From NCBI GenBank assembly GCA_016946835.1, contig JACVTC010000200.1, positions 62,001 through 126,000 on the forward strand: a DNA stretch of 64,000 bases, read 5' to 3'. Of this stretch, positions 3,062 through 34,888 are shown one piece after another. Source of the DNA: Neocallimastix lanati (nom. inval.) (lineage: Eukaryota > Neocallimastigomycota > Neocallimastigomycetes > Neocallimastigales > Neocallimastigaceae). Both the position numbers and the translations under genes were made by a program. A model generated the notes under the pieces. The model was not told the origin of the DNA, ran no database searches, and was given only the letters and a program-made list of their open reading frames with translations. Position 1 is the first letter of the stretch, and the number at the start of each line of letters is the position of its first letter.

Positions 3062-3868
3062 ATATAATTTTATTGTAATAATTTTGAATAATTTGATATA
3101 TGATTTAATTAAATTTTTTTTTATTATAATATATATATATTTTTTAAATAAATTTTGTTTATATTGTATATGTCCTTTAATTCGTGTATCAAATTAAACA
3201 ATATAGGATATTTAAATTTATTGGGTACTATTAATAGTAACAAATTTTGTTTTGTTCATATATATTACTGTTTATATTAAAATTACTTAGTTTATACCTG
3301 TGAATGTACTTGATCGCTTCTATTATATATTAACTTAATTTAGTTATGATTTATTTTCATAAATATAAAATTTATAGTGTTTTTACTTAATTTAATATAA
3401 TTAAAATATGAATATCGAGTTTTTATTGAATATTTTATTATTATTGGTGCTTTTAATTGCTTTGTAATTCATGGATATATTATTATAGCTAAGATATAAT
3501 GGTCGCTTTTGCTCATTTGTATTGTTTAGTAATATAAATTATTCATCTTTATTAAATATTTATATTAAATTTTAATATAGGTACAAAATTATTTTTAAAA
3601 AGATAAACGTGATATAAGTATATAATTTTTGTTTATATTAATTTAATTTAAATGTTGATTTTAGAAACAACATAATTCTACATAAATTTTTAGGATATTT
3701 TAATTTAATAATATATGTTTTTATAATATTTTCAGGTTAACATTTTATTAACTGATAATTATATTTTCAGTTTAATAATATTTATTAGTTATTTGCCTAT
3801 CAAATTTTTATTTAATTATTTCAATTGATTTATCTTATTATTTTAAGATCAATTAATTTCTTTATTAT
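3062..3868 (-). mobile_element. internal leader remnant of an older minus-strand copia element (F family, D-like)
   Basis: Positions about 3140-3360, read on the minus strand, resemble the D-element leader at 54945-55140, including the segments around GGGTACTATTAATAGTAAC and ATATGTCCTTT-ATTCG. Nearer the A insertion lies a bulged hairpin unit (3734-3755, minus strand, starting CAGTTAA and ending TTAACCTG) like those of the F leader on the other side of element A (10274-10388). So F was split when A inserted at 3868/10266. No gag-pol frame survives. Confidence 0.65.
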
Positions 3869-4109
3869 TGTTAGAATATAAAAAAAAAATAAATACTTAA
3901 TAATGACTTTAATATATTTTACCCAATCAGAATATTATTATATTTAAGTAAAATTATAAAAGAAATAAAATGTAACCTTGTTAAAAATATATACACTTTT
4001 GTAATTATAAAAAATAAAGATAAATAAAATTAAATATTAAGTATTATATATAAAATGTTATTCTAAAAATATATCTAATTTTCTCAATATTTGTTTTTGG
4101 TGTTTAATA
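3869..4109 (+). repeat. 5' LTR of copia A
   Basis: 241 bp, TGTTAGAATA...GGTGTTTAATA. Followed directly by the primer-binding site. It lies outside the inverted-repeat arm, so only the left copy of element A retains a 5' LTR. Confidence 0.95.
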
Positions 4110-4138
4110 GATTAAGAGTCTCAGTCTACAACTGAGCT
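4110..4138 (+). promoter_or_regulatory. primer-binding site of copia A (5' half of tRNA-Lys CUU)
   Basis: Begins at the base after the LTR with GATTAAGAGTCTC and continues as AGTCTACAACTGAGCT. The reverse complement reads as the D-arm (AGCTCAGTTG..TAGA) followed by the anticodon arm (GAGACTCTTAATC) of a tRNA-Lys with CUU anticodon. It stops about two bases past the anticodon loop. This fits priming by the 5' half-tRNA, as known for Drosophila copia with initiator Met tRNA. Confidence 0.85.
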
Positions 4139-4410: not shown

Positions 4411-4488
4411 AATTAATGAGGGATTAATACAATTTAATAATATCATTATTCATTCATTGTATATAAAAATATACATATATATTATAGT

Positions 4489-4770
4489 CAGTCAAATTAT
4501 AATTCGAACTGAAAAAATAATATAGTCAGTCAATTATAATTTGAACTGAAAATTAGTATTATCAATAAAGTTTTATATTGAAATAAAATAAAAAAAAAAA
4601 AAAAAATTAATAATAAAATAAAATAATAAAATAGTCAGTCAATTATAATTTGAACTGAAAATCATATGGTCAGTCAAATAATTAATTTGAACTGTAAAAA
4701 TAGTATAGTCAGTCAAATAATTAATTTGAACTGAAAATCATATGGTCAGTCAAATAATTAATTTGAACTG
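4489..4770 (+). repeat. array of six bulged hairpins in the copia A leader
   Basis: Six units at 4489-4511, 4527-4548, 4636-4657, 4671-4694, 4710-4733 and 4747-4770. The last three have the form CAGT-CAAAT-(5-nt loop)-ATTTG-A-ACTG: a 4-bp stem, one bulged A on the 3' side, 5 more base pairs and a 5-nt loop. The earlier units are shorter or carry one mismatch but keep the outer stem and bulge. They lie between the primer-binding site and gag, where retroelement packaging or dimerisation signals usually lie. Function unknown. Confidence 0.85.
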
Positions 4771-5303
4771 AAAATATTATTGTCAATTATTAACAATAAA
4801 ATTAAAAAAAAAAAAAAAAAAACATATATATTTTTAATTCCAATATTAATAAATGTAAATCAAGTATAAATACCTTTTTCAAACATAAAAAACCAATAAT
4901 ATAAATGTTTAATTAAATTAATTTCAAATAGCATAATGAAAAATATTACATTAAAAAATAAGATAAAAATAGAAACCAATCATAATTCTGAAATATATTA
5001 TTTTATAACTTTTTTTTTATTAAGTAATAAATATAACTTAACCAATTATCAAAAAATATATATTATTAAAGTTCATTATAAATTATCAAGGAAATATTAA
5101 ACAATATATATTTCAATTTACATTTATTTAATGAAAATAGAATAAGGTTTTAATCAATATATTAAATATGTATAAATAAACAATCCAGACATACAACATA
5201 TCCCTCATCAATTATTCTTTAAAATTTTGAATAAAAAAAATATTCGCATAATATAAAATATTAATAAATTATTAAAAAATAAATTAATTTAAAATTCTCC
5301 ACA

Positions 5304-8300
5304 ATGGCTAACACAAGAAGAAACAATAGAAATGAAGTAATTACCATTGAAGAACCCATTGACATCAGGCCAACAATTAAATTTAACTACTCTGAAAATT
5401 TTAACAGAGTAGTTGAATTAAATAGTGAAAACTATAATAGATGGAGAACCAAAATCCTTCATCTATTATCAATTAACAACCTAGTTGGCTATATCACCAA
5501 AGAAAAAGTTAAGAAATTAAGGAAGAGAGATATACAAGATGACCTATCTGAGTATATCGAAGATGAATTTGATGACACATTGGTGTATGACAAAAACACC
5601 AATGTAGTTGATATCAATAACGATATCACAACAAAATGGATCGTCCTAAACAGTATTGGAGAAAAAACACAAGACATTGTGCAAGGATCAAATAAAACCG
5701 CCTTTGAATTGTGGAAGATTCTAAAAAGATCTTTTACCAAAAACATCAACACGCGTAAATTAGAACTTAAAACCAAACTCGATAATTTGAAGTATAACCC
5801 AGAAGTGGACATTAATATATTTATTGCTGAACTACAGAACACACTTGATGAACTCGAGAAAATAGATAATGACATTGAATCAAGTGTTAAAGTAGGCATC
5901 TTTAACAGAAGCCTCCCAGAAGAACTCCGTTGGATTAATGTGTTTCAATTTAAAAATGATTGGAATAAATGCAGTGAATATGTTAAGGATGTATTGCCTG
6001 AAATAATCTCTTCAAACCTAAAAGAATCCTTAACAAATAATCAAAATAATAAAAATATATTTTCAATAGAAAATAATACTAACATTAATACAAATAAGAA
6101 AAAACTTACTAAAATAAAAACATCTACTAAAAAGACCAAAAATGGTAGATGTAATTACTGTGGTAAATGGAGCCATTTCTTTTATGACTGTAAAATTAGA
6201 AGAGATGATAAAAATAATAACAAAAGAAGAAAAATTTTCAAAAGAAGAAGAAATAATTTTAAAAGAAAATATAATAAACGTAGAAATTATGCAAATTTCA
6301 TGGAAAAAGAAAGGTACGATACAAGCTATGCCGATTCTTTTACCAAGGATTACAATTCTCAAGAAAACCTTGATATTAATTTTGCCGAAGTAAATAAACA
6401 AAACGAAGAAAATAAACAAAAAGAAATGATGTGTTGGATATTGGACTCCGGCGCATCAATAAATATTACTGGTCATTTAAATAAATTACATAATATTCAA
6501 AAGTGCAATGACAAAGTTTATTTAGCTAATAATCAGGTTATATCAACACAATTTAAAGGAGATCTCATAGGATACATTAGTAATCACAAAATAATCATTA
6601 AGAATGTTTATTACTCACCAAAAATAAATAGAAATTTATTATCAATTGGAAATCTTACACAACAAGGATACAAAATAATTTTCAATAATACTAATAATAA
6701 ATCATATGCACTAATTTATGACGAACACAATCAAAGAATATTATCAATTAAATCGAACCAATCTAATACATTTAAATTTTGGATTTCAACTCAACCATTA
6801 AATTTTCAAAACAACCAACATAATAATAATTTGGTTGAAATCAATTATACACATTTAAAATCAATTGATAAACTAAATTTATGGCATCGTCGTTTTGCCC
6901 ATTTTAATATCAATAGTATCAAAAATAAAATTTTAAAAATCAACATAAACTCAAAGTGCCCTATTTGTAGTTATTCAAAACTTAAAAATAAGCCCTTCAA
7001 ATCATCACATAATAGAGCCAAAAATATATTTCAACTCATACACATGGATCTTATAGGTCCAATACAAAACTCTATCTATGACAATAAATATATCTTAACC
7101 ATTTTGGATGACCATTCAAGATTTGGGTGGACTCTCTTTATGAAGAGTAAATCAGAAACTTTTTATCACTTCCTTAATTGGTTTAATAAAATAAAAAATC
7201 AATTTAACAAAAGAATTCAATATATCCGTACAGATAATGGTACCGAATTTAACAACAAAAATTTCAAACAATTTTGCATTGACTTTGGAATACAACATCA
7301 ATTTACTGTTCCCTACCACCCACAACAAAATGGTAGGATTGAACGATTCAACGGCACTATAATCAATTCTGCAAAGTCAATGTTAAATGACGCAAAACTT
7401 AGCTTACAATTTTGGGAAGATGCCGTCTCTACCTCCAACTACATTCATAATCGAATCCCTCATAAAGGGATAAATAATAAAATTCCATATGAACTTCTAA
7501 CCAATAACAAAGTTGATTATTCAAACATACGTGTCTTCGGATGTAAAGTTTTTTATTACGTTCCAAAACTATTCCGCACCAAATTTCAAAATAACTCATC
7601 TCCTGGCATATTCTTGGGGTATGTTGATAATCCCACAGCATACAAAATTCTTGATATTACAAATAATAAAATTATAATTTCACGAAATGTTGAATTCTTT
7701 GAATTTACATCAGGAAATTCACATTTATCTCATTGCGATAATGACATCTCAAATTTTATTCCCAATAATATAATAAGGAGGAATGATAATACCTACTTTT
7801 ATGATAACACGTATGATATAAACCACGGCAAAGACTTCAATAATACTAACAATAATAATCCGTATTATCAATATAATAACAATAAGTCAAATAATATTCA
7901 AATATTAGACAATAATACTCAAATAAATGAAAATAATATACAAAGTAAAAACATTCAAATAAAAAATAAAAGAACATATAACAAAAGAAGAAACAACAAT
8001 AATAACAACATCAAAAATATTAATAATAATCAAAACAAAGATTATAATAATAATATAGAATCTCAAGATAATAACATTGACAACAACGACAATAATAATA
8101 ACAATAACACAAGTAACAATAAAATTAATAACAACGATAACACAAACAGCAACAACAACACTACCAACAGCAATAATAACAAAATAAACAATAATATTAA
8201 TAAAAACGACAATATGATCACTGTCAGTAATAAAAACAATCATAATAATTCAAATATAGACAGATATAATTCAAACAATAATAAAGATAACAACAATGAA

Positions 8301-9971
8301 CAACGAATCATTAATAACTTAACGAATAACAAATTATTTAACATAGAATCTTCCATACATTTAGGAAAACGAAATAGAAATGAAAACTTCATATTAAATT
8401 CAAATAACAAAAAACAAAAATCATTAAAAGAATTACGAGAACCAAATAATTATGATGATATCTTTAATTTAAATGATAAAAATGAATGGTTAAAATCAGT
8501 CGATAATGAACTCGACAATATGAGAAATCTAAAAGTATATGAAACAATTGATAAAATACCTAAGAACGCAAACTTAATATCATCAAGATGGATTTTCAAA
8601 TTCAAACGAAACTCAAATGGAGAAATAATCAAAAGAAAATCAAGATTAGTAGCAAAGGGATTTACGCAAGAATACGGCATAGATTATAAAGAAACCTTTG
8701 CACCTACCTTAAAACAGGATTCAATAAGAATCTTTACAGCAATTGCCACTCAGAACAATTTTGAAATAAACCAAATAGATATAACTGCCGCCTATTTAAA
8801 TGCTGAATTAAATGAAGATTTGTATATGAAACCACCCAAAGGACATGAAGATTACAATAAGAAATTTTGGAAATTGAAGAAGGCAATATATGGACTGAAA
8901 CAAAGTGGTGCCAAGTGGAATGATAAATTAAATGGCTATCTAATAAAAATTGGATATAAAAGACTTATAAGTGAACCTTGTCTGTACGTTAAATTTAATA
9001 AAGGAAAACTTTTAAGTATGTTAGCTCTATATGTGGATGATATTTTAATATCAGGATCAAAGAAAACAATAGAAAGTGTAAAATTATTAATTGAGAAAAA
9101 GTTCAAAATGAAAGATATAGGTAATGTTGATTATATTATTGGAATAAAATTTATAAAACATAAAAATGGTTACTTTTTACATCAACACAGATATATAGAT
9201 GAATTACTTTCTAAGTTTAATATGAAAAATTGTACACCTCTTAGAATTATGACTCCAATTGAAAATGAAGATCTTAGGAAGGTAAAAGTAGATGAAACAA
9301 AATATAGAAGCATAATAGGAAATTTATTATATCTCAGTATATGTACAAGACCCGACATTATCTTCTCAGTATTAAAAGCAGCTAGAAGGGCAAAGGAACC
9401 AAATATGGAAGACTGGAATAACGTAATGAGAATATTAAGATATTTAAAAGGAACTAAAAAATATGGAATAAATTTCACAAATAATCCGAATGTTAAAGCG
9501 TATGTCGATTCGGATTACGGAGGTGACTTGGAAACTAGACGTTCAACAACAGGATTCTTAATAACATTTGGTGGTGCACCAACAAGCTGGTGTTCAAAGT
9601 TACAAAAATCAATATCGACTTCAACAGCCGAGTCCGAATATTACAGTCTTAGTGAATGCGGTAAACAATGTATATGGTACTTAAATTTATTCGAAGAATT
9701 GAACTTAAATATTAAAAATATTGAAGTAAATGTTGACAATAAAGCAGCTATTTATAACGCTACAAATCAAACTATCAACCCAAAAACTAAGCATGTAGAC
9801 ATTAGGGTTCATTACATAAGAGAAATAGTCAAAGAAAATAAAATCTATCTTAAATATATAAAATCTGAAAACAATCTTGCTGATGGGTTTACGAAGTATT
9901 TAAATGGGACATTAATGGATAAATTTAGAAATTCCTTATTAACAAAAATTGATGATTTATATTTTATTTGA
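5304..9971 (+). CDS. copia A Gag-Pol polyprotein
   Basis: A single 1555-codon frame with all Ty1/copia domains and no gag-pol frameshift. Gag has the N-terminal block FNYSENFNRVVELNSENY, conserved in all four copia families here. A CCHC zinc knuckle (CNYCGKWSHFFYDC) lies at about 283-296. The aspartic protease motif LDSGAS is at about 380. The integrase has its zinc finger from LWHRR and the D,D-35-E residues in HMDLIGP, RTDNGTEF and NGRIERFNG. An Asn-rich linker spans about 840-1010. The reverse transcriptase has YVDD at 1243-1246. RNase H has AYVDSDYGGD and the TAESEYYSLSE block. The ATG follows a leader with no other long frame. Proteolysis of the polyprotein is expected from the family. 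Nothing looks broken, so this copy may be functional. Confidence 0.96.
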   Translation: MANTRRNNRNEVITIEEPIDIRPTIKFNYSENFNRVVELNSENYNRWRTKILHLLSINNLVGYITKEKVKKLRKRDIQDDLSEYIEDEFDDTLVYDKNTNVVDINNDITTKWIVLNSIGEKTQDIVQGSNKTAFELWKILKRSFTKNINTRKLELKTKLDNLKYNPEVDINIFIAELQNTLDELEKIDNDIESSVKVGIFNRSLPEELRWINVFQFKNDWNKCSEYVKDVLPEIISSNLKESLTNNQNNKNIFSIENNTNINTNKKKLTKIKTSTKKTKNGRCNYCGKWSHFFYDCKIRRDDKNNNKRRKIFKRRRNNFKRKYNKRRNYANFMEKERYDTSYADSFTKDYNSQENLDINFAEVNKQNEENKQKEMMCWILDSGASINITGHLNKLHNIQKCNDKVYLANNQVISTQFKGDLIGYISNHKIIIKNVYYSPKINRNLLSIGNLTQQGYKIIFNNTNNKSYALIYDEHNQRILSIKSNQSNTFKFWISTQPLNFQNNQHNNNLVEINYTHLKSIDKLNLWHRRFAHFNINSIKNKILKININSKCPICSYSKLKNKPFKSSHNRAKNIFQLIHMDLIGPIQNSIYDNKYILTILDDHSRFGWTLFMKSKSETFYHFLNWFNKIKNQFNKRIQYIRTDNGTEFNNKNFKQFCIDFGIQHQFTVPYHPQQNGRIERFNGTIINSAKSMLNDAKLSLQFWEDAVSTSNYIHNRIPHKGINNKIPYELLTNNKVDYSNIRVFGCKVFYYVPKLFRTKFQNNSSPGIFLGYVDNPTAYKILDITNNKIIISRNVEFFEFTSGNSHLSHCDNDISNFIPNNIIRRNDNTYFYDNTYDINHGKDFNNTNNNNPYYQYNNNKSNNIQILDNNTQINENNIQSKNIQIKNKRTYNKRRNNNNNNIKNINNNQNKDYNNNIESQDNNIDNNDNNNNNNTSNNKINNNDNTNSNNNTTNSNNNKINNNINKNDNMITVSNKNNHNNSNIDRYNSNNNKDNNNEQRIINNLTNNKLFNIESSIHLGKRNRNENFILNSNNKKQKSLKELREPNNYDDIFNLNDKNEWLKSVDNELDNMRNLKVYETIDKIPKNANLISSRWIFKFKRNSNGEIIKRKSRLVAKGFTQEYGIDYKETFAPTLKQDSIRIFTAIATQNNFEINQIDITAAYLNAELNEDLYMKPPKGHEDYNKKFWKLKKAIYGLKQSGAKWNDKLNGYLIKIGYKRLISEPCLYVKFNKGKLLSMLALYVDDILISGSKKTIESVKLLIEKKFKMKDIGNVDYIIGIKFIKHKNGYFLHQHRYIDELLSKFNMKNCTPLRIMTPIENEDLRKVKVDETKYRSIIGNLLYLSICTRPDIIFSVLKAARRAKEPNMEDWNNVMRILRYLKGTKKYGINFTNNPNVKAYVDSDYGGDLETRRSTTGFLITFGGAPTSWCSKLQKSISTSTAESEYYSLSECGKQCIWYLNLFEELNLNIKNIEVNVDNKAAIYNATNQTINPKTKHVDIRVHYIREIVKENKIYLKYIKSENNLADGFTKYLNGTLMDKFRNSLLTKIDDLYFI

Positions 9972-10024
9972 AATAATATAAATTAAAAATATGACATTTT
10001 AGGAAAGTCATATTTTAGGAGGAA

Positions 10025-10265
10025 TGTTAGAATATAAAAAAAAAATAAATACTTAATAATGACTTTAATATATTTTACCCAATCAGAATATTATTATATT
10101 TAAGTAAAATTATAAAAGAAATAAAATGTAACCTTGTTAAAAATATATACATTTTTGTAATTATAAAAAATAAAGATAAATAAAATTAAATATTAAGTAT
10201 TATATACAAAATGTTATTCTAAAAATATATCTAATTTTCTCAATATTTGTTTTTGGTGTTTAATA
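10025..10265 (+). repeat. 3' LTR of copia A (left copy)
   Basis: 241 bp, preceded by the polypurine tract AGGAGGAA. Two substitutions from the 5' LTR. Mirrored at 48788-49028 in the right arm. Confidence 0.95.
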
Positions 10266-10956
10266 ATTATAAACAGATTAAAATTTATGTTATCTGACTA
10301 TTATTGTATTTATTTTCAGATTAAAATTTTAATTATTAGCATATTAACTGACAATTCTGTTATTTTCAGTTTAATTCAATATTAACTGATTATTTTATTA
10401 TATATTTTTTTTTTTAATAATAAATTAAATGACTATTGTATTATATATTTTTTTTTTTTTAGAATTATTATTTTTTTAGAATTATTATTTTTTTATTGGT
10501 CTTAATTATGAATTTTTTAAAATACATTTATGACTTTACTAATGATATCACAATTTATCTATATCTCACAATTTGTTCTGAGTGTATTTAATGCATATAT
10601 ATTTTTTTTTGATTAGAACTATTTATGATCTTAGTTTAAATATTAGTTAATTAGTTTATTATATTTAAACACTTTTATTATAAATATAAATATTATATAT
10701 GTTTGACTTCTCTTTGAATCGAACTCAGTTTGTAGAACAGAGACTCTTAATCTGTTAGAATAAGAATATTTTTATTATGTTAAAAAAATAAGAATAACAT
10801 CAATATATAAAATTATACATTTTTGTATTATTTATAATTGACATAATATACTGCTTATTATTATTATCTATCATATATCTTACACATATATTAAAATATA
10901 TAATATTACTCCTTAAATTAATCTAATTATAAGACTTTATATTTATATTTCTAACA
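10266..10956 (-). mobile_element. F-family copia remnant: 5' LTR, primer site and leader, split by element A
   Basis: On the minus strand an LTR runs from 10956 to 10753 (204 bp, TGTTAGAAAT..TTCTAACA). A primer-binding site starting GATTAAGAGTCTC is at 10752-10721. The leader then carries bulged hairpins at 10367-10388 and 10274-10296 and a looser unit at 10317-10350. The leader is cut at 10266 by element A (duplication ATTAT) and continues at 3868. A related LTR with primer site starts at 63787. No coding region remains. Confidence 0.82.
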
Positions 10957-11782
10957 TTTAAATATTTTAAAAATTTATAAAATAAAGAAATTCAATTAAG
11001 ATTATTGAATTGAATTTTTAATTTAAAATAATTTAACTATATTATAATTCAAAATATCATTTTAATTTCATTATTTTAATTTAGAGAGTAAATACTTTTT
11101 TTCGTCATTTCTATATATTTTATATAATTTATATGTTAAATATATAGAATATATAAATAAAAATAATAAATATAACAATTTTCTAATGATTCAAAATATA
11201 TAATTATTTTTGTTATTTTATAAAAAATTTAAATGTAGAGAAAAAATATTTATAAAAAGAATTTATTCCTTAAATTAATTTTTTTTCTTTCATTTTTAAA
11301 TTTTTTATTATTTATTGTTGATTATTTTTTAATTTTATCACTATTAAAAATAAACTAATATAAATTATAAAATAAATTATTATTAAAATATAATGGTAAA
11401 ATAATTTTAAATTAATAAATTAAAATTTTATAATAACATGAAAATATATAAATATTTCATATTCCTAAAATATAATTTCATATAATTAAAATTAATATTT
11501 TTATTACTCATGTATAAATTATTTTTTAAAGTAAATTATTAATAATATATAAATATAAATATATAAAACTAATTTTAAATAAACTGAATTTAAAAATTAT
11601 AGAAATAATATTTATAAAAGATTGAAATTAATATTATATTCATATAAATAGAACAAATATTTTTAATTCCAATTTAAAAAAAATTCTATAGTAAATAAAA
11701 ATAAAATCATATATATATTATTTTAGAATTAGTAATGTAGTAACAATTGTTTTATAATATTACAATATTTCCATTAAATAAA
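10957..11782. other. AT-rich intergenic region upstream of the beta-helix/glycosyltransferase gene
   Basis: No gene or repeat recognised. It should hold the promoter of the gene starting at 11783, but at this base composition I cannot point to a specific element. Confidence 0.4.
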
Positions 11783-14173
11783 ATGAAAATTTATTATATT
11801 CTTTTATTTCATTTGCTTTTTGATATAATAAAAGCAACAAATATTACTATAAGATTTTTAAATAACACAATATCAAATGATAATTATAAAATTTTTGGTA
11901 CTGAATTAGAAATTAATAAAACTGGTAAATATTTCATTAAAGGAAATTCAAATAAAGCAAGTATAGTTATTAACTCTAGTAATATTAATATAAATTTCAT
12001 AAATGCTTCATTATTAAATTTTGAAAAGCCAATAATATTAATTAATGAGAATTTAAATAATATTACCATATCATTGGAAAATACAATTATTAGTAGCTTA
12101 AAAAATGAAATATTAAGAGTTAAAAATGGTACTGAATTTGAATTGACTGGTGAAATATCACTAACCCCTAACCCTTTAAAACGGAAAGATATAATTTATT
12201 TTGAAGGGAATAATAAGTTAAAATTAGGATTAAAAAAAATGGAATATAATATTAAAAATAAAGCATATTTATATTATTTGAATGATTTAAATTTTAATAA
12301 TAATAAATTATCATTTGCAAATATTAATTACATGGAAAATATTTTCATTATTGATGAACTATCATACAAATCTTATAATAAATGTAAATTTAAATTAAGT
12401 GAATTAGTTAATATAATGAATGAAAATAATGATAATAATAATATTGATAAAAATTATACTAAGAAAAATAAGAAGAGAATCAGTAATATTAAAAAAAATA
12501 GAAATGAAGGTAAAAAAAGTAATGAGCAAGATAAAATTTTAATAGAAGATTATAAAAATAAATATAATATAAGAAAATATAAAAACTTAGTGAAAGAAAA
12601 AGTAATTATTTCAAATGAAATTAAAAATTATTTTCTATTGAAAAAAAACAATAATATATTAACAAATAATACTCTAATTATTTTAATAAAATCTTCTTCA
12701 AAAAATATAAATGTTATAGTTGAAGTAATATATTCATTATTGTTCCAATCTGCTAATATTTCATCCTATCAATGCTTTATTATATTGAATAAAAAGGACT
12801 TTTTGAATGGTAATGATGATTTACCAGTTGATTTAAAAACCCTTATTGAAAATAAATGGGTGACAATAATATGGGATAAAAATATATTTACATTCATAAA
12901 GTTTTATCAAGAAAATGATATTATGATAGTTGAAGATAATATTCTTAGAAACTTTGATTATATAGAAATGTTTCAACATGACCATAAAATATATCCAAAT
13001 GATGTTTTATGTGGTATATTTTCATATAACTTCGATAGTGAAATGAAATTAAATAAATTAAATGGATATAAATTAAGGAATGGTTTAGAAATTAATGTTG
13101 TTCCAAATATGATTTTTCAAACAAGTATGCCTTTATATGGTATAGGTGGTGTTTATTATCCAAAACATACATTTTCAGATGAAAGATTTTTCAATGAGAT
13201 GTTATATAAAAAAATATCCTCATCATCCTATGAAATGTGGTTGTATGCATTTAATATTATTGAAGATAAAATATTGAGACAGACTTCAAAAATATATGAT
13301 TTTTCATTAAATATTTTAGATAAAAACAAATGCTTGACCATAGAATCACTTAATATTGAAAATGAAATTCTTTCTAGTATAAACGAAAGAATAATTGAAT
13401 ATATTCCGGAATATAAATCTAAATCAATAGAAAGACAAAAGAAATTAATCGTATCAATTACATCATATAAGCAAAGATTCAAAAAATTACATTTAGTATT
13501 AGAATCAATATTTAATAATTCTTTGAAACCATATAAAGTTATTTTAACAATTTATAAAGGTGATTATGAATATTTAACAGAAGAAATAATGAATATGGTA
13601 AATGAGAAGAGGTTAGAATTAATTGAGACAGAAATTGACTTTAAACCACATAAAAAATATTTTGATGTAATGAAAAAATATAAGGATTACGCCATAATTA
13701 CAATTGATGATGACGTTATATATACTTCGGATTTGATAGAATCTATGTATAAAAGCTATATGAAATACCCTAATTGTGTTCATGGAAGAGTAGTTCATAA
13801 ATATCAGATGATAAGAGGTTCAAACGAAATAGCACCATACCGTAAATGGAAAAAACGTTATACAAATGAAATTAATCCTTCGTATGATTTATTAGCTGTA
13901 GGAATTGGCGGAATTTTATATCCTCCAGATATATTAAATATATCAGATTTTAATATAAACGAAATATTTAAATGTATAACAGCTGATGATATCTATCTGA
14001 AATATTTAGAAATTAAGAAAAATATTAAAACTGTCTGGGTTCCGTATAAAACATTCTATTGGGAAAAAGAATTAAGGGATGATGAAACTCAAAAATACGC
14101 ATTATATAAAAATAATATGAAAGGACTTAACTTAAATGATAAATATATAAAAATATTTAATATTGTGCCATAA
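11783..14173 (+). CDS. secreted beta-helix plus tandem glycosyltransferase-domain protein (left copy)
   Basis: 796 residues from the ATG at 11783; an upstream in-frame TTG at 11747 is not a likely start. Residues 1-19 form a signal peptide or signal anchor (MKIYYILLFHLLFDIIKAT). Residues about 20-150 resemble the right-handed beta-helix carbohydrate-binding repeats of the Cthe_2159 type (GTELEINKTGKYFIKGNSNK). A Lys/Asn-rich linker covers about 213-250. Two glycosyltransferase-like units follow. The first (about 297-508) has VEDN where a catalytic acidic motif is expected, and IGGVYYP. The second (about 555-770) has SITSYKQR, the acidic motif IDDD at 641-644 and IGGILYP. The first unit therefore looks like a degenerate duplicate. 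The catalytic unit resembles bacterial glycosyltransferases and suggests transfer. It converges with the GT2-GT4 gene, 979 bp apart. Substrate unknown. Confidence 0.82.
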   Translation: MKIYYILLFHLLFDIIKATNITIRFLNNTISNDNYKIFGTELEINKTGKYFIKGNSNKASIVINSSNININFINASLLNFEKPIILINENLNNITISLENTIISSLKNEILRVKNGTEFELTGEISLTPNPLKRKDIIYFEGNNKLKLGLKKMEYNIKNKAYLYYLNDLNFNNNKLSFANINYMENIFIIDELSYKSYNKCKFKLSELVNIMNENNDNNNIDKNYTKKNKKRISNIKKNRNEGKKSNEQDKILIEDYKNKYNIRKYKNLVKEKVIISNEIKNYFLLKKNNNILTNNTLIILIKSSSKNINVIVEVIYSLLFQSANISSYQCFIILNKKDFLNGNDDLPVDLKTLIENKWVTIIWDKNIFTFIKFYQENDIMIVEDNILRNFDYIEMFQHDHKIYPNDVLCGIFSYNFDSEMKLNKLNGYKLRNGLEINVVPNMIFQTSMPLYGIGGVYYPKHTFSDERFFNEMLYKKISSSSYEMWLYAFNIIEDKILRQTSKIYDFSLNILDKNKCLTIESLNIENEILSSINERIIEYIPEYKSKSIERQKKLIVSITSYKQRFKKLHLVLESIFNNSLKPYKVILTIYKGDYEYLTEEIMNMVNEKRLELIETEIDFKPHKKYFDVMKKYKDYAIITIDDDVIYTSDLIESMYKSYMKYPNCVHGRVVHKYQMIRGSNEIAPYRKWKKRYTNEINPSYDLLAVGIGGILYPPDILNISDFNINEIFKCITADDIYLKYLEIKKNIKTVWVPYKTFYWEKELRDDETQKYALYKNNMKGLNLNDKYIKIFNIVP

Positions 14174-15152
14174 AATTGAAATAGCTACATTTATAAGAAA
14201 TAAAAATTATTATATAATAATATTAATGAAATAATTTAATTTTAAAATACTTTTAAATTTTATTAATTAGTATTTAATAAAATATTTTCTAATTTTTTAA
14301 TTACATATTTATTGTTAATAAAATGCATTAATTTAATAATATGAAAATAAATAAAATAATTAATATATTATATAATATTATAAAATTATTGTAAAAGAAT
14401 AAAAATACTTTTTTGAGATTTTAAAAATAATAAAATATTTTTTCCTGAAAAAAATTTATATTAAATTATTTATAATAATAAACTAATTATATTTAATTCG
14501 ATATTTCCATATATAACGATTGCGAATTAGATATAGTTTGTAGTAAAGAAAAGAATTTCAAAAATCAAATAAAAAGCAATTAGCAAATATTATTTAATTT
14601 TTAAATATTTTTGAAGAATGTTTATAAAATGGACTAAGTAATTTCAAATCGAAAGATGAATTTTTTATATGTTTTTATGCTTTAATTTAATAATATAGAA
14701 ATTTAATGAACAATAAAAATATTATATTGAAACGAGTTATATTTAAAATTTTTATATAATTTAAAAAAATATATTCATATATTTTTCGCTTAATTTTATA
14801 ATAAAATAATTTTATATAACTGTTTTATATAAATTTTTAGTTTAATATATATAATATATTAAAATAATAATATTTTATTTAAATATACACAATTTTATTC
14901 AAAAGTTATATATATAATTTTTCTCTATATTAAATAATTAATTTTATAATAATTTTAATTTTATTTTAATATTTAAATCTTTATGTTATTGAAATAATAA
15001 TTTTATTTAAAGATACGTAGGAAAATATTTATTATTTATAAAATTAAGTTAAATTAAATCTTCATATTATAGTAATTAAAAACAATTTTTAATTTTTTAA
15101 ATTAAAAAAATACCTTAAAGTTATTATTCTGAAATATTTTTATATAAAACAT
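14174..15152. other. intergenic region between two convergent genes
   Basis: 979 bp of AT-rich DNA between the stops of two convergent genes. It should contain both polyadenylation regions. No further gene or repeat seen. Confidence 0.5.
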
Positions 15153-17921
15153 TTATGTTTGATTTGTTAATGTCTTATTAAGTTTTGGCAAATAATTATC
15201 AAATCCAAATTTACTAACTGACATTTTGCATGATACTCTCATAGATTCAGCATTAGAATCCATATAGTCAATTGCTTCAATAAAGCCTTTTAAATCTCCT
15301 ATATCAAAGAGATATCCATTTTTTTTATGTTGGATAATTTCTTCTACACCACTAAATCGAGAAGAAATTACAGGAGTACCACATGCCAAAGATTCCAAAT
15401 ATGACATTGAGAAACCTTCCCAACGACTGGGGGAGAGAAGACACTTAGCTTTTGACATCAGAGCATAGATATCAGATCTAAAACCAAGAAATATGATTTT
15501 ATTTTTCAGTGGATTTTTAGCCAATTTTTTCTTAAGTGGCCTATTTAATTTTCCTGCTCCAGCAATAACAAGATAATTAGTCTCAATAGCTTTTGAATTT
15601 AAGAAACCTTTTAGCAAAAGATCAATTCCTTTATGCTGAACTTCATTTAGATTTCCAGTAAAAAGATAATATCCTTCAAGTTCAATACCTTTATCAATAA
15701 AAACTGACTCTTCAATTTTTTTTATATCAACAAAGTTATGAAGAGTTATAATATTTTTGGAATTTCCGTAAAGATTTATAAATTTTTTCTTTACAGATTC
15801 AGAAACACATAGTATCTTATATAATTCATCCTTAGTTTTTTTACCAAGATAATTTCGAATGACATTAAAATACATATTAGATGTTCTTGTATTATGTATT
15901 GTTGGAATATATTTGTAGCTATAATTATCGATGCAATATTTCACAAACGGATACTCTTGATCAGTTTTTTTATAATGAAAGTCAAATATAAATTCAGATT
16001 TTTTTAGTTGTAAACGAACAAATTCAGATTTAATATTTCCTCTATATATAATACCACAATAGTCGTTGTTCACTTTTTTGATATTATCTAACATAAAAAT
16101 TACTTGATACCCAAGTTCATGCAAAGCAAAGCTTAGAAGAGAAGCGACCCTCTCTGGATCTCCTTCTCCCAAATGTGAAGCATAAATTATGATTAATTTT
16201 TTACTATTAGTCAAATTCAGTTCATGTTCAAAAGCAGCATCTATCCCGACAATGTAATGAAATAGCCACCTATAATTGACTGGTTCAACATTTTGAATTG
16301 GCTGCTTCATTATTAAGTTTATATATGACTTAATATAATTAGATTCAATTAAATTTAATAAAGTAGGAATTACATGAGGTATTTTACTGAAGAAAAGTCG
16401 TATAGATTCACTTTCTCTTTCTTTATTAATATAGTTAGTAATTCTTTTTCCATGTTCTGAATTCCATATCCTAATGAAATGATAAAGATTTATATTTCCT
16501 CTTAATTCATTTTTATACTTCCAATGAATAATTTCCAAAAGAAGCCTGAATGAAGATAGCATATGATCTGTTGTAATTTCCTTTGGGCGATAAGAAGAAA
16601 TATTATCATTAAAATATACATATCCATAATATTTAAGAGTTGCCACGTTACTAGCAACACTAAAAGCATTTACACAAAATATAACATCCTGGCTGAAGCC
16701 AAATTCAATAAATCTGGCATTATCAAGTACTTTTTTCCTATAGAATTTAGCCCAGGAAGCATGTGTACCAAAGCCTCTTGATAAATATATCTGAGTAGCC
16801 TCAAGACCTGAAAATTTTCCAATTCTTTCAATAGTATCATATTTTAATCTTCCTTTACGTTCTCGAATGCAAGGAGTAACTACAATATCGACATCATTTT
16901 CTTTTAATAAATAATCTAGGCAATCAAATATGTAGCTAGAATAATAAAAATAATCGTCACTGTCCATAAAAGTGATGAATTCACCTGAAGCCATGTCAAG
17001 AGCCTTATTTCGAGCAATACCAGATCCTTTATTTTCTTGTGTAATCACTTTTATAAATGGATACTGGGACGAATAGTGATTAAGTACCTCAAGGCTGTTA
17101 TCTGTAGATCCGTCATCTATACAAATGATTTCTAAATTTTTTATTGATTGGGCTAAAATAGAATTAAGGCATTTTTCAAGATATGATTCTCTATTATATA
17201 CAGGAATAATAATAGAGAGTATATTTCTACCAGAATATAAAGTATTATACAGATCAGCTCCCACATTTCTATATATATTAAACATATCATATTTTTCTAT
17301 ACTATTTTTTTCATATCTGTGTAGCAAGTTTAACAATTCATATGCTTGCTTTGAATTTACTTTTTCAATTATTTCTTTTATATAATCAACTACAAGATAA
17401 AACGTATTTCTTTTCACTTCTTCATTTCGGTTCTCATTTGCGAAATTCAATTCTTCAGTAATATCAGAAATAAATCTGTTTAATTTGAATTCCGTATTCT
17501 CTTCTACTTTATCTTCTATCTTTATTTCTATTTTATTTCTAATGTTTTTTTTATTTAAATCTTTAATTTATAGAATATATATATAATAAATATAAAAATT
17601 ATAATTTTTAGATATTTTATTTTAATTTTTATGAATAGAAAATTATTAGATTTAACAAACTTTCTTTCTTACCATTTACAAAATTAAGTTTTCTTATAAT
17701 AGTTTTTATAAAAAAAATATTATATATTAACATTTTATAAATTAATTTTTTTTTTTCATATATCTTTAAAATACTTACGAATATATAACGTCTTTGTATT
17801 CACAAGTATCTGAATATAATAAATTAATATAAGGACAATTTATATTATTTTCATTATAAATAATTGCGGAAACTAATATAGCGTTTAATAAAAATAAATT
17901 TATGCTAAATATCCAATTCAT
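15153..17921 (-). CDS. double-domain glycosyltransferase GT2-GT4 with probable signal exon (left copy)
   Basis: The main frame runs 17538-15153. Numbered from codon 17450, a GT-A (GT2) domain starts at about 77 (SIIIPVYNRESYL), with IDDGS at 111-115 and the metal-binding DSDD at 163-166. A GT-B (GT4) domain starts at about 417, with the E-x7-E nucleotide-sugar motif (E678..E686, EGFSMSYLE) and the GTPVISS block. Such GT2-GT4 fusions are typical of bacterial capsule and exopolysaccharide loci. The long frame has no ATG near its start (TTG at 17450). I therefore propose a first exon, 17921-17779, encoding a hydrophobic leader (MNWIFSINLFLLNAILVSA). It joins in phase across a GTAAGT..TTAG intron (17778-17539) to give about 842 residues. 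The domain calls are firm; the exon model is inference. Confidence 0.85.
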
Positions 17922-18832
17922 TTTTTATTTGTTATAAATGATAAATATAGTAATACGGATCTACACAATATTTAATAGATAAATAAAAAATATTAATATT
18001 AATGTTAGTAAATAATAAATAAAAATTTATTAATTTAGGAGATTTATATTTAAAATTCAAATTACATGTATCAAATGCAATTAACGGAAATTTAATTTTA
18101 TTATATTTTATTATAATTATTAAATTTAAAAAAAATAATAGAATTTTTAAATGTATATAAAATATTTAATTATAAAAATATTTTTAAAATTTATATTAAA
18201 TTTATTTTATATTTTTTTATAATTTTATCATATATTCGTTTTTATTATTAAATTGAGTATATTTTATTAAATGTTTTTAATTATATAATGAATATATTTG
18301 CAATAAAAGTTTAAATATTTCTCACTATATAATATTATAATTTTTTTTCAATTGTATTTTTTTCAATTATAAAATATATTATTAAATATATTTTATAAAA
18401 ATTAATTTTAAAATAAATTGCTAATATATTAAATAATTTAATTTATTTTAACTTATTAAATATAAAAAAAAATTAAAAAAATTTATTAAGATAAAAAGAT
18501 ATTATAAATAAAATTTGTAATAAACAATATGTGAATTATATCGATTGAATAATAAATTAATTCAAAATAATGTAATTATTTTAATAATCATTTTATTAAC
18601 ATAATTTGCGTAAAATTATTTATATTAAATTTATAAATATTTATTTAATTATAAAACAATTATTAAAAATTTTAAAATTAATTTATCACTTTCATTATTA
18701 CATATAGAAAGAATTTGTTACTTTAATTATGTTTTATTATATAGAAAAAATTATTAAATAATATATAAATTTCATATAATTTTAAATCCATTGATATTTT
18801 TGTTTTTTTAAATATTTAACCCTTTACAATTC
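17922..18832. other. AT-rich upstream region of the GT2-GT4 gene
   Basis: No gene, RNA gene or repeat recognised. It lies between the proposed first exon and the old A-type retrotransposon stump, and should include the promoter. Confidence 0.4.
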
Positions 18833-19332
18833 TAAAATCAAACTATTAACCCAAAAACTAAACACATAGATATTAGGGTTCATTGCATAAGAGAAATAGT
18901 CAAATAAAATAAAATCTAACTTAAATATACAAAATCAGAAAACATTTTCTCTGATGGGTTTACAAAGTATTTAAATGGAACATTAATGGATATATTCAGA
19001 AAATCTTTATTAACCAAAATTGATGAAATATATTTTAATTAAAATAATATAAATAAAAAATATGACGTTTAACGAAAGTCATATTTTATGAGGAATTTTA
19101 GAATATAAAAAATAAATATGTAATAATGACTTTAATATAGTTTACTCAATCAGAATATTATTATATTTAAATAAAATAATAAAAGAAATAAAATGTAATT
19201 TTGATAAATAATAAATAAACTTTTATAATTATTAAAAATAAAAAGATAAATAAAATTAAATATTAAATATTATATATAAAATGTTATAATAAAAATATAT
19301 TTAATTTTCTTAATATTTTTTGGTGTTTAATA
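18833..19332 (+). mobile_element. 3' stump of an old A-type copia element (left copy)
   Basis: Starts inside RNase H. The decayed reading TINPKTKHIDIRVHCIREIVK, with later stops and changes, corresponds to the C-terminus of the A polyprotein. It is followed by the conserved tail ..LNGTLMD.FRKSLLTKID. A weakened polypurine tract (GAGGAA) and a diverged A-type LTR at 19096-19332 come next. The 5' part is absent. From about 18833 to 19266 it is mirrored in the right arm, but the last 66 bp of the LTR (19267-19332) differ from the mirror copy. Confidence 0.88.
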
Positions 19333-20437
19333 ATTTAGAAAAAAAATTATTTTTTCAAAAATTTCTATTTTTTGCAGGGCATATTTTAAAAAATACATTA
19401 TAAAATCAAATTATAGCCCAATTATTATTAAACAATTATATATTTTATTTTAATTTAATAAAAAAGAATTAAAATAATTTAATAAAAAAAGGAATATATA
19501 TATATCTGTTAATAATTATATTAATATTATTGAAAATTGTTTTTTTTTTTAAAAATAATATACAAAAAATATCTAAATAGAAAAATGTATTTAAATTTAT
19601 TTATATTTATAACTATTCATGGAGTTATTTAAATTCAAACATTTTAAAATTTTAAAATTTGACATTTTAAATATAAAAATAAAAGAATTTATATTTCAAA
19701 TTCATAATGGTTAAATTTTTTGCAATAAAAATGCCTAATAATCAATCAATAATATTTTTTATATTATTTTAAAATTATGAAAATATAAATATAAAAATAA
19801 ATTTCATTATTTAAAATTTAAAAATATAATAATTTAATAGAAATTTTATATATTTAGATTTTCTAAATTCTGAAAACAAAAAAATAAAATTTTGAAATAT
19901 CAATAAATAAATATAACAATTTAAATTTAGAAACTAAATAAAGTGGTTAAAGATTATTATCTTAAGTCATTTTATTTTATATAAGGATAATAAATTAACA
20001 AATAGTTTCAAGCATATAATATAAATAATTTTCTTAATGAAATTATAACGCATATAAGCAAAAATGAGCATGATTAATAATTATTCAATTATCAACATAC
20101 TTATTTTTACTATATTATTTGTTAAATTAAACTATGCTTTTACAGAAATTATGTTATATTAAAAATAGATGTTTTAGAGATATTGAAAATTTAATCAATA
20201 AATTATTATTTTATCAATACATTAAATTTCAAATATGTTTTTTTCTTTCATTAAATACATGTTAAATATAAAAAACTAGATATTTTTTCAAATTTCAGAA
20301 ATAGTTATAAATCGGTATAATTTTAATCATAAAAATAGTAATAAAAATTTTAAAATCAAAATATAATTAAACTTAAAAATAAAAAAAAAATTGAATTTTT
20401 AAGTTTATTTAATTGTAATTGAAATTAAAATAAAATT
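19333..20437. other. AT-rich region, with one 32-codon frame resembling a signal peptide
   Basis: No clear gene. The frame 20064-20162 (+) encodes MSMINNYSIINILIFTILFV and continues to a stop after 32 residues. It looks like a hydrophobic leader and could be a stranded first exon of a lost gene, but nothing downstream supports it. Copia B begins at 20438. Confidence 0.3.
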
Positions 20438-20698
20438 TGTCAAAATAATGATTAATTTAATTAATCTATCTTTAATATAAATAATGACCAATTACTTGTA
20501 TTAATATTTAAAATAAAAAGTATAAAAATCGTGGAATTATTATTTTATAAAAAAATAATATCTTATACAAAAGAGAATAAAAATAATTTATACTGTTATA
20601 AAAAAAAAATATTTTTCTAAAAACTACTAATCCATATATATTTATTATTGTGTTTATTATAACTTATTTGAGTGTTTCTTAACATAATATTTTTGACA
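20438..20698 (+). repeat. 5' LTR of copia B
   Basis: 261 bp from TGTCAAAATAATG to ATTTTTGACA. Confidence 0.93.
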
Positions 20699-20728
20699 GA
20701 TTAAGAGTCTCAATCTCAACCGATTAAT
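20699..20728 (+). promoter_or_regulatory. primer-binding site of copia B
   Basis: GATTAAGAGTCTC directly after the LTR, continuing AATCTCAACCGATT. The reverse complement matches the D-arm plus anticodon arm of tRNA-Lys(CUU): AATCGGT..GAG, then GAGACTCTTAATC. Confidence 0.85.
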
Positions 20729-20950
20729 CCATATTAAAGCTAAGTATTTTTTTTTAAAATAAAAATTTAACATTAAATAAATTTGAAATTTATATATTTA
20801 TTATTAAATATTAATTTTTAATTATTTATATATATATATAAATATTTATAAATTATAAAACTAAAATAAAAGTGGAATCTTTAATATTTAAAATAATTGT
20901 ACAAAGAAGTCCAATATCAATATAATTGAATTTGAAAATAAACAAAAGGT

Positions 20951-21129
20951 CAGCTATTAGACATAATCTGAGGATGAAATAAAAGATCAGCTATTGAATA
21001 TAAGCTGAGAATGAAACAAAAAAATCAGCTATATTATATAACCTGAGAATAAAAGAACATAACATGTCAGCTATGCTATATAAGCTGAGAATAAAAGAAC
21101 ATGACATGTCAGCTATGCTATATAAGCTG
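20951..21129 (+). repeat. array of five bulged hairpins in the copia B leader
   Basis: Five units of exactly 20 nt at 20951-20970, 20988-21007, 21026-21045, 21068-21087 and 21110-21129. The pattern is CAGCT-AT-(5-nt loop)-AT-A-AGCTG: 5 bp, a single A bulge on the 3' side, 2 bp and a 5-nt loop. The first and third units each have one mismatch in the outer stem. The last two lie in a 42-bp direct repeat containing ACATGT. Confidence 0.87.
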
Positions 21130-21750: not shown

Positions 21751-24700
21751 ATGAGCAGAAACAATTCAAGAAGTAACTCCAGAAACCAAATCATCGAAAT
21801 TCCCGAATCAGAAAGTAATTTCTTCGCTAAAGGAATCTCTTTCAATTACTCCGAGAATTTCAATCATGTTACCGAATTAACGGTTGAAAACTTCCAAGAT
21901 TGGAAAACTAACGTATTGGACCTCTTAATCATCAATAATTTAGATGAATACGTTAGTTTACCAAAAGTAAAAAAATTGAGAAAGAAGGATATTAAAGAAG
22001 ATTTAGATAAGTACATTAAAGATAAATTTAATAATTCTCTTGTTTACGATATTGGGACAACATAAACAGATATCAAGAATGACATCATGGTCAAATGGAT
22101 AATTAATAATAGCCTGGGAAAGAAAACGAAAGAAATAATAAAAAGCCATAGTAAGACCGCCTTCGAAATGTGGAACTTCCTTCAAGATTCCTTTACTTTA
22201 GGAGAAGAGCATCAAAAAATGCTATTACGAAATAAATTAAACAGATTGAAATTTACCACAGATGATGACATACATATCTTCCTTGCAACACTTCAAAATA
22301 TGATCGATGAATTGGAAATCATTGATACAGACATGAGTGATAGTGTAAAGGTAGGGATTCTGAATAGAGCCTTACCTGAAAATCTAAGGTGGATAAATGT
22401 TTTCCAGTACAATAATGAATGGATAAAATGTTGCAATTACGTAAAAAGAATAATACCAGATATTCTTTTCTCGAACATCAAGGAAAGAAAACTTCAAGAA
22501 GAAAACGCAAAAAATATTTTTAATTTACAAACTGAAAACAAAAATAAACAAAATAATAAGCATTTAAAAATAAGAGGAAGAAAAAATGGAAAATGTTTCT
22601 TATGTGGAAAATACGGCCACTACAAAAAGGAATGTTATAAGTATAAAAGAAATAAGCTCTTGAATCAAAACAATGAAAATAAATCAATGAAAATTCGAAG
22701 AAAATTGAACAAAAAATATAATAAAAGTAAAATTAATAACAAGCATTTATATTCAATAAGCAATTACAACAACTATAAAGACGACTACTTAGAAGATTTT
22801 TCTAAAGATTATAACTCTGACAATGCAATCGAAATTAATTGTTTAGAAAGAATAAATAATAAAAATCACGAAAATAGTAATATACATAATAATAACTTCA
22901 TAGTTTGGATTTTAGATTCAGGTGCATCAATCAGTACTATTAATGACATAAAATTTCTTACTAACATTAAAAAATGTAAAACAAAAATTTTACTAGCGAA
23001 TGGTAAAGAAGTATTATCTGAATTTTGTGGCGATTTTGTAGGATTCATTAACAACAACAAATTCATTTTAAAAAATGTTTATTATTCACGATATATTAAG
23101 ATAAGCTTAATTTCAATCAATCAATTAATTTCTCAAAATTATAAAGTAATATTCAATAATTATGACGACTCCCCACAAGCATTAATTTATGATAATGATG
23201 GAAATAGAATTTATAAATCTTTATCTAATGATAAAAATACATATCAAATTTTCACTTCCAAACACCAAACAAATTTAAATTCAACAAAACATAACGAAAT
23301 CAATTATACAGTATCAAATAACCAACAAGTAATAGACCTTTGGCATAGACGCCTAGGTCATTATGATATTTCTAAAATAAAAAATAAATTAAGTAATATC
23401 AATCTAAAATTAAAATGCCCAGTATGTATTAATTCCAAATTAAAAAATAAGTCATTTAAACCATCTACCAATAAGACTAAACAAATTTTAGAATTAATAC
23501 ATCTAGATCTTGTAGGACCTGTTAATCCTTCAATAAATAACAATAAGTATTTCCTTACAATTTTAGATGACTACTCTAGATATGGATGGGTCATCTTCAC
23601 TGAAAATAAAAATGATGTATTTAACAAATTTATCATTTGGTATAATAAAATTTATAATTCATTAAATATAAATATCAAAGCAATTCGATCTGATAATGGG
23701 AAGGAATTTCAAAATAGTAAATTTCAAATTTTCTGTGAAGAAAATGGAATTCATCATCAGTTTTCAGTTCCTTATAACCCTTCTCAAAATGGAAGGGCTG
23801 AAAGATTTAATGGTATACTCATTGCTTCTTCAAAATCACTTCTTAACGACGCTAAACTCAGTCATGATTTTTGGGAGTTTGCTGTTGATACTGCAAACTA
23901 TATTCATAATCGACTTCCCCATCAAGGCATTCAAAACAAAATTCCATTTGAAGTATTTTATAATAAGCCTGTAGATTACAATACATTTAGAGTATTCGGA
24001 TGTAGAGTCTATTTCTTTGTGCCAAAGGAACTAAGATCAAAATTTGACAATAATTCACATCCTGGTATTTTTCTTGGATATTGCGATCATCCTTCCACTT
24101 ACAAAATTCTTGATGTTATCAATAATAAAATCATCCAATCTCGCACTGTAGAATTTATGGAAAATGAACCAGGAAATTCCTTTTTAAATCGTATTCATTC
24201 CAATAACAAATTCAGGGAGAGCAACTGTCTAAACCGACTTAGATACCGTAATGAAATTGATGATTATAATAATAAAATAACAGATATTATCAATGAAAGA
24301 AATGCTACAACAAATTTTAACCAGAATAGAAATATTAACCAGAATAAAAATATTAAAAATCAATCCAAAAATAAATCTTCTAAAACAAATAGAATTAGTC
24401 GTAAATATTATCCCAATTATCAAAATAATAATAAAAAAATTATCATTAATAACAGTAATCAAAATAATAATAATGAAAATAACAGCAATACTATTGACAA
24501 TAATTCAATCAATAATAGTAACAATACTTTCAATCAGGAATTGTTAAATTCAAATGATCACAATTTCAATAATAATTCAATCAATATTAATAATGAAATT
24601 AAAAATGTGACTGAAAATGATAACAACAAAATATCAACAGAAAATCAACAAGAAATTAACAACATTAATAATAAATATAACACAAATAAAGAGAAAAATC

Positions 24701-26349
24701 AAAACTATCAACATCCTAAAAATTCAAAAAGGAATTTAAACGATTTTATAATTAATTCAAATAAAAGAAAAAAAATAAACAACACAGATGAATCAGACAT
24801 GAAAATTAATGAAAATACATTAATTGAACCATATAACTTCAAGGATATATTCAAATTTAAATATAAAATAGAATGGCTAAACGCAATCAAGAAAGAATTA
24901 GAAATCATGAGAATTCTTGTTGTTTATAAAATTGTTAAAACAGTACCATCAGGATCCAACGTAAAATCATCACGATGGGTATTTAAGTATAAAAGAGATG
25001 CAAACGGAAATGTTATTAAAAGAAAGGCAAGATTAGTTGCAAAAGGATACACTCAACAGTACGGTATCGACTACAAAGAAACATTTGCACCAACACTAAA
25101 ACAGGATACAGTTCGAATCATTACAGTTATCGCGGTTCAGAAAAATTTCAATATTGTTCAAATAGACATCAATTCAGCTTATTTAAATGCACCATTAAAT
25201 GAGCATATATACATGAAAGCACCAGAGGATCATCCATCTTACGGAAAATCTTTTTGGGAACTTCACAAAGCTCTTTACGGCTTAAAACAAGCTGGTAAAG
25301 AATGGAATGATAAACTCAATGAAGAATTGATAAAAATAGGTTTCAATAGAATAAAAAGTGAGCCATGTGTTTATATTAAATTAAACAATGGGAAGGAAAT
25401 AGTCTGTATTCTCTCAGTATACGTTGATGACATTCTTATTGCAGGAACAAATCAAGAAATAAATAAAGTAAAACAATCTATTCAAAGGAAGTTCAATATA
25501 AAGGATATTGGGGATGTTGAATTTGTAATTGGAATAAAATTTACCAAAACTTTAAATGGTTACATTTTACATCAAAGTAGATACATAAATGACATTTTAA
25601 ATAAATTCGATATTAACAACTTAACACCAGTAAAAAATCTTATGCCATTAGTAAATCCAAATCTAAGAACCAAGAAATTCAATGAAACAAAATACCGAAG
25701 TGCAATAGGAAGTTTACTATATTTAGCTATCTGTACCCGTCCTGATATTCTTTTTGCTTTTAGTAGAGCTTCAAGAAAATCAACAGATCCCAACTTAGAA
25801 GATTGGATGAATGTTTTAAAAATTTTTAAATATCTCAAATATACAAAAAATTATGGAATCAAAATAGAAAAGGGAATGAAATTAAAAATATTTGTAGATG
25901 CCGATTTTGCTGGAGATCCAAATACAAGAAAATCAACTTCTGGATTTCTCATGTTAATGGGGGACACTCCAACAAGTTGGTATTCCAAATTACAGCACTG
26001 TGTCTCCACCTCAACTACAGAAGCTGAATATTATAGCTTAAGTGAATGCGCAAAGCATTCATTATGGTACAAAAATTTACTAAACGAATTAAACATAAAT
26101 ATCAAAGAAATAACAATTTTCGTAGACAATAAAGCAACAATATATAATAGTGAAAATCAATCAATAAATCCGAAATCAAAACACATTGACATTAGGTATC
26201 ATCATATTAGGGATTTAGTAAATAAGAAAATTATAAAATTAAAATACATAAAATCAAAGGACAACCTTGCTGATGGTTTTACAAAATACTTAAATAACTC
26301 TTTAATGGACAAATTTAGAAATACCTTATTAACGAAAATAATTAATTAA
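21751..26349 (+). pseudogene. copia B Gag-Pol, interrupted by one in-frame TAA
   Basis: The frame begins at the ATG 21751 and stays in register to 26349. A single TAA at 22063-22065, about codon 105 in Gag, splits it. Element C has a Glu codon at the aligned place, so one base change explains the stop. Downstream everything is intact: zinc knuckle CFLCGKYGHYKKEC, protease ILDSGAS, integrase with RSDNGKEF and NGRAERFNG, an Asn-rich linker, reverse transcriptase with YVDDILIAG, and RNase H with VDADFAGD and TEAEYYSLSECAKH. If the stop is real the element could move only by using proteins from a relative. A sequencing error cannot be ruled out from the sequence alone. Confidence 0.93.
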
Positions 26350-34860: not shown

Positions 34861-34888
34861 CAATCGGTTGAGATTGAGACTCTTAATC
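34861..34888 (-). promoter_or_regulatory. primer-binding site of copia C
   Basis: On the minus strand GATTAAGAGTCTC follows the 5' LTR and continues AATCTCAACCGATTG. It is the same tRNA-Lys(CUU) 5'-half complement as in element B. Confidence 0.85.

Follow-up and report, generated by a model that had tools for sequence, protein, structure and literature searches.

Tandem bulged-hairpin arrays in the leaders of copia elements from the gut fungus Neocallimastix lanati

The window, a stretch of 64,000 nucleotides of the Neocallimastix lanati genome (contig JACVTC010000200.1, positions 62,001 to 126,000 of the forward strand), holds four copia elements, A to D, and the remnant of another, F. Direct LTR repeats are present. 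In A, B and C, the Pfam domains of a copia gag, an integrase and an RVT_2 reverse transcriptase lie in one frame, and in D they lie in two frames; F has no gag-pol. The motif AGATTAAGAGTCTC, which follows the LTR and is common to the window elements, is complementary to tRNA-Lys(CUU). We predict this motif to be the primer-binding site (PBS). Its complementarity to an internal stretch of the tRNA is as expected of copia elements. The motif occurs at 1889 places in the genome, and its reversed pattern at none. Between the predicted PBS and gag in A to D, and after the PBS in F, lies an array of short hairpins, just where a preliminary description, made from the letters alone, had placed it. The features are as follows (window positions unless a locus is named).

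3728–3758, minus strand: single unit in a further leader remnant, no PBS seen
4109–4122, plus strand: predicted PBS of A, complementary to the anticodon region of tRNA-Lys(CUU)
4109–4136 and 54349–54375, and 302–330 of locus L119: hairpins adjoining the PBS, with a UCA...UGA frame
4488–4771, plus strand: array of A, six units, TCAGT/ACTGA, bulged A, inner stem CAA..TTG
5304–9971, plus strand: gag-pol reading frame of A, copia type
10269–10392, minus strand: F array again, on the mirrored arm of an inverted repeat
20698–20711, plus strand: predicted PBS of B
20950–21129, plus strand: array of B, five units, TCAGCT/AGCTGA, bulged A
21751–26349, plus strand: gag-pol of B, with an in-frame stop early in gag
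28676–33385, minus strand: gag-pol reading frame of C
34178–34519, minus strand: array of C, eight recognisable units
34876–34889, minus strand: predicted PBS of C
48300–48313, plus strand: predicted PBS of F
48664–48779, plus strand: remnant of the F array, three units, TCAGTT/AACTGA and TCAGAT/ATCTG, no gag after it
54349–54362, plus strand: predicted PBS of D
54672–54870, plus strand: array of D, one full unit (54672–54693) and about four degenerate ones, TCAACT/AGTTGA
55311–59775, plus strand: gag-pol of D, split into two frames

The arrays begin approximately 250 to 380 bases past the PBS in A to D and in F; in A to D, 440 to 790 bases separate their end from gag. From array to gag start, the leaders of A to D contain three to six ATG triplets, which simple scanning would meet. 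A perfect inverted repeat of 14.4 kb (4968–19334 and 39719–54085) begins within the leader of A and is either a duplication or an assembly effect; glycosyltransferase-like reading frames lie within its arm (11747–14173 and 15153–17450). A tRNA-Lys(CUU) gene is found elsewhere in the genome (L165, 1485–1558). The 3' part of this tRNA has 73 pattern places, many of them around 5 kb apart in runs on the same contig.

The hairpin unit reads (A)GU-CA-R-Y-U, then an inner stem and loop, an unpaired A, and A-R-Y-UG-A-AA. The bulge is on the 3' side, and in A it sits one pair lower than in the other families. Among 29 chosen units the bulged base is A in 27, G in one and U in one. Least variation is seen at the UCA/UGA end and, for most families, at the bulged A; the loops and the middle of the stem vary. 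Departures from UCA...UGA are seen in the fourth unit of A, which ends in UGU, and in the last unit of B, which ends in UGG; in this copy of B, two units also carry a stem mismatch. One unit of C contains a compensated C-G pair (TCAGCC..AGGCTGA at 34333–34356). The inner stem is weak in some families, and in the further types H and I (see below) it is a single pair followed by a mismatch. The outer stem had been put at 4–5 bp, but it is one pair longer, closed by U-A. Stems had been said to differ by family, but B and C both have the CAGCT stem. Five to eight units had been counted in each of A to D; in D just one is complete, and its degenerate units were called by eye with other D copies for comparison. 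Eight copies of A carry 5 to 9 units, and the arrays vary by whole units.

Strict units were counted with a scan for hairpins of 18–28 nt with an outer stem of at least 4 Watson–Crick pairs (at least 2 of them G/C), one 3' bulge, an inner stem of at least 2 pairs, at least 7 pairs in total and a loop of 3–9 nt. The leaders of A, B, C, D and F contain 5, 3, 7, 1 and 2 such units, respectively. The means over 200 dinucleotide shuffles are 0.13, 0.12, 0.21, 0.07 and 0.04, and the maxima are 2, 2, 2, 1 and 2. A, B and C thus exceed the shuffles, and D and F lie within the maxima, so that neither of these stands out alone. When the bulge is moved to the 5' side, the same scan finds 0, 2, 3, 0 and 0 units. 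A scan that is blind to stem sequence also finds pairs resembling arrays in L009 and L069, two loci that have none. Whole arrays were folded with RNAfold and compared with 100 shuffles. The z values for A, B, C, D and F are −8.5, −1.8, −4.0, −6.1 and −1.5 in sense and −7.7, −2.6, −3.3, −4.0 and −1.0 in antisense. The antisense strand is almost as low as the sense strand, and folding energy therefore gives no evidence of strand. The predicted folds of whole arrays often pair different units together. Rfam has no match in the window at the gathering score.

The pairing itself was assessed across 29 units of our choice. Six of the nine pairs show two-sided changes, in both stems, and 93.4% of the cells are paired, compared with 20–41% in slid controls. 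With a bulge-free inner stem, pairing falls from 93.4% to 74.0%. The number of pair types, one of the five measures used, lies within the shuffles (256/500). The outer pairs of rows J, K, M, N, O, P, R and the second M type are not independent, because these rows were found by complementary-arm patterns. The bulge, the inner stems, the window rows and the rows sampled by PBS or gag are free of this selection, except that the TCAGCTAT-N-ATAAGCTGA pattern fixed AT and ATA.

Covariance models extend this result to units outside the window. The genome searched by pattern is one assembly of 199 Mb in 762 contigs that includes the window. Model R1 was built from window units and units of several PBS-sampled families. 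It gives 38 matches in the window at E≤5, of which the 24 with E<0.02 all lie on the sense strand of copia leaders or leader remnants. Three of these had not been described before: two in the mirror copy of F (10312–10392, minus strand) and one at 3728–3758 (minus strand). A pair of matches at 10989 and 48036 (E 0.053) falls in no recognised leader. Model R2 was built from 11 window units and applied to 70 loci, 30 sampled by gag and 40 by PBS. It gives 70 matches at E≤1 in 24 of the loci. Of these, 22 belong to further copies of B and D and 47 to families that are not in the model, and a doubtful one lies in L076. Fifteen of the 47 have E<0.05, and many are near-identical copies of type E. 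By hand check, 69 of the 70 are on the sense strand, upstream of gag or after the PBS. Model R3, which contains no pairs, gives 36 matches in the same loci. In twelve further array loci, R2 recovers 16 units of types J and K at E≤0.1 and R3 recovers none of these at that threshold. The E-values are rough, and between models they compare only loosely. Units of held-out families are thus recovered within this genome.

At least ten further array types in the genome show the fold (E, G, H, I, J, K, M, N, O, Q and S in our naming), with inner stems that include AT/AT, AAC/GTT, AAT/ATT and GAT/ATC. The TCAGCTAT-N-ATAAGCTGA pattern is found at 322 places, and its reversed controls at none. TCAGCT-N-AGCTGA is found at 537 palindromic places (control 5). 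The excess is modest for the CAACT stem (285 against 178 in the reversed control) and the CAGTT stem (132 against 90); arrays of new families are among the matches listed for both. Forty stretches were picked from the pattern lists for inspection. A PBS is seen for types E, G, H, I, K, M and S; J is represented by just the stretch after the PBS. Eight of ten TCAGCT arrays of at least two units on contigs C1–C11 have an exact PBS at most 1 kb upstream on the same strand. A PBS was sought in five upstream stretches and was absent from four (one CAACT, one Q, one N and one O array). The stretch of the PBS-less CAACT array (L083) matches arrays of types J, K, M and E. Of the places that the O stretch matches, two sit upstream of gags (C746 and C153). 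We read the four PBS-less arrays as element remnants. Upstream of the O array in L121, we noticed by eye a tRNA-like gene with an apparent intron.

Outside this assembly, Gag relatives are named from Orpinomyces and Piromyces. A collection of viral contigs contains no relative of the reverse transcriptase. Forty stretches of that collection have one match apiece to the CAGCT hairpin pattern; on these, R1 finds no clusters but 26 single matches at E≤1, each on its own contig, with 0.014 as the best E. In a genome contig collection, one contig (L164) places a D-type gag in a bin of the methanogen Methanosphaera. Its first 920 bases contain one unrelated hairpin and no array. A fungal copia Gag in such a bin probably reflects contamination of the metagenome-assembled genome.

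Among the sampled loci, the arrays are restricted to one Gag clade and the stem type follows the clade. All 12 loci with a recognised gag outside this clade lack a model match. The Gag tree contains 26 rows, thinned from 50, with array labels assigned by eye. Four of the five CAGCT rows form one group (98/97), CAACT and CAGT group with the weak L012 (100/99), and CAGCA groups with CAGCG (96/97). The last two are new stems, from L070 (CAGCA/TGCTG) and L042 (CAGCG), whose arrays lie upstream of gag in a separate Gag clade and have no clear bulged A. The nine array-less rows require one change (support 63/97). L053, L057, L074 and L047 are long branches of unsure placement; three of them lack arrays, and the tree leaves two of these unresolved on the array side. 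Within the clade, arrays can be slight or missing, as in L012 (one weak unit) and L024 (no match). R1 matches occur in six of the 40 PBS-sampled loci, and R2 matches in five and the doubtful L076. No gag was recognised in 31 of these 40 loci (L075 included), and these carry no clade assignment.

At the fourth stem pair, one-sided variants that are array-like by our reading, among the matches listed, number 10/39 for G-U and 9/55 for A-C. The expected G-U bias is absent, and selection on recent copies is thus not supported. Stem columns are less variable than spacers with p values of 0.04 in C, 0.33 in B and 0.90 in A, on stem and spacer labels that are biased toward intact stems. The sign of stem constraint within families is weak.

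Together, covariation, held-out matches and the restriction to one clade support a repeated, structure-conserved RNA element in copia leaders. The arrays are sense-oriented tandem hairpins with a 3' bulged A, and their pairing is kept while the stem sequence changes between families. The hairpin structure is almost certainly real, and the pairing has very probably been selected in the RNA. Of the properties of a packaging signal, a position between PBS and gag is found in A to D and several other loci, and conserved RNA pairing is also found.

That the arrays act as a multivalent protein site is somewhat probable in our view. A protein that binds RNA would dock on each unit by reading the bulged A together with the UCA/UGA helix end, and a row of such sites would provide avidity. 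The near-constant helix end and bulge, with variable loops and mid-stems, fit such reading. Gag is the first candidate, since a CCHC knuckle with basic flanks is present in the Gags of all four window elements (net charge +7 to +10 before the knuckle and +11 to +15 after it). The element's own Gag might bind through its knuckle and the adjoining basic stretches, and full-length RNA could in this way be picked for assembly. Knuckles with basic flanks are also present in Gags of array-less elements. A CCHC knuckle would be expected to like G in loops, and the loops here have no conserved G. We rate Gag as the reader somewhat below an even chance. The combined proposal, in which the arrays act in cis on the RNA of one copia clade as multivalent docking sites, with the element's own Gag as the likeliest reader, has in our estimate not quite an even chance. 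We favour multivalent reading by Gag, with host factors close behind. The suggestion that the arrays define each family's RNA is not supported, as the near-constant features are common to families, B and C share a stem, and the stem follows the clade.

A host RNA-binding protein might read the hairpins instead and serve to export the element RNA from the nucleus, or act in its translation, localisation or silencing. The near-constant hairpin features, common to families with differing Gags, fit one common reader, but the restriction to one Gag clade among sampled loci, with 12 of 12 outside it unmatched, argues against this. We consider a host reader rather unlikely. The host protein Spen, which binds retroviral RNA, is a precedent (PMC7282817).

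The units might also be palindromic DNA sites of a dimeric DNA-binding protein, with an enhancer or insulator function. The gypsy leader likewise carries repeated protein sites, those of Su(Hw), with AT-rich spacers. The leader position, the repeated sites and the spacers agree with this reading, as do the absent G-U over A-C bias and the small difference between strands in folding. The gypsy sites, however, are of one sequence, whereas here no single recognition sequence is kept: the arms differ between families and change together. The inner stems also covary, the spacing of the arms varies, and the extra A lies on the 3' side of the sense strand. We consider DNA sites improbable. Pairing between self-complementary units of two genomic RNAs, giving family-specific dimers, is equally improbable. 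The units share arms, and predicted folds do pair different units of one array, but dimers alone need neither a conserved bulged A nor near-constant UCA/UGA ends.

Still less probable is that the arrays derive from, and help in, loading of the primer tRNA. The UCA...UGA frame is also that of the hairpin beside the PBS, whose stem matches that of the array in several families (CTCAGT/ACTGAG in A; CTCAACT/AGTTGAG in D, E and M). Against this, C and G, which have CAGCT arrays, carry a different PBS hairpin, CAATC/GATTG, and that of J and K is just partial. Chance or neutral tandem repeats of AT-rich sequence, with which variation by whole units and the counts in D and F agree, are hardly credible given the two-sided pair changes, and chance hairpins are ruled out for A, B and C by the shuffles and overall by the held-out matches.

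We know of no packaging region of an LTR element or retrovirus that is built of several copies of one small hairpin. The XIST A-repeat consists of short hairpin units in a row with AT-rich spacers. It belongs to a long host RNA and differs in sequence; the likeness lies in the tandem units and their spacers. The packaging and dimerisation regions of Ty1, Ty3, HIV and MMTV are likewise structured RNA near the PBS and gag, with a nucleocapsid-like Gag. Ty1 is described as still transposing when reduced to a minimal element that keeps 380 nt from its 5' end and 357 nt from its 3' end (PMC4974528), and a model of the Ty1 5' region has been reported (PMC5454406). In the fungal totivirus L-A, the packaging hairpin is described as needing a bulged A (PMC8951182). 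In that hairpin the A lies on the 5' side, and residues of the loop are important, whereas in the copia arrays the A is on the 3' side, the loops vary and there are several copies. An assignment as a totivirus-type hairpin was rejected on the side of the A (PMC8951182), and the likeness is one of form, apart from descent. Searches of open-access full text showed no description of such arrays in copia elements.

In our judgement, the choice of RNA by copia and Ty1 elements is less well known than that by retroviruses. A short, repeated, covarying hairpin provides a small and testable RNA target, and its natural variants separate sequence from shape. The clade also provides natural controls, in families with strong, weak and no arrays. 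In the leaders of a copia clade of gut fungi, an RNA platform for multivalent protein landing may have evolved, perhaps by amplification of the PBS-adjacent hairpin. Its stems would have been replaced pair by pair while the features read by protein stayed fixed, and one reader, Gag or host, would serve all families of the clade. We regard this account as evenly balanced between true and false.
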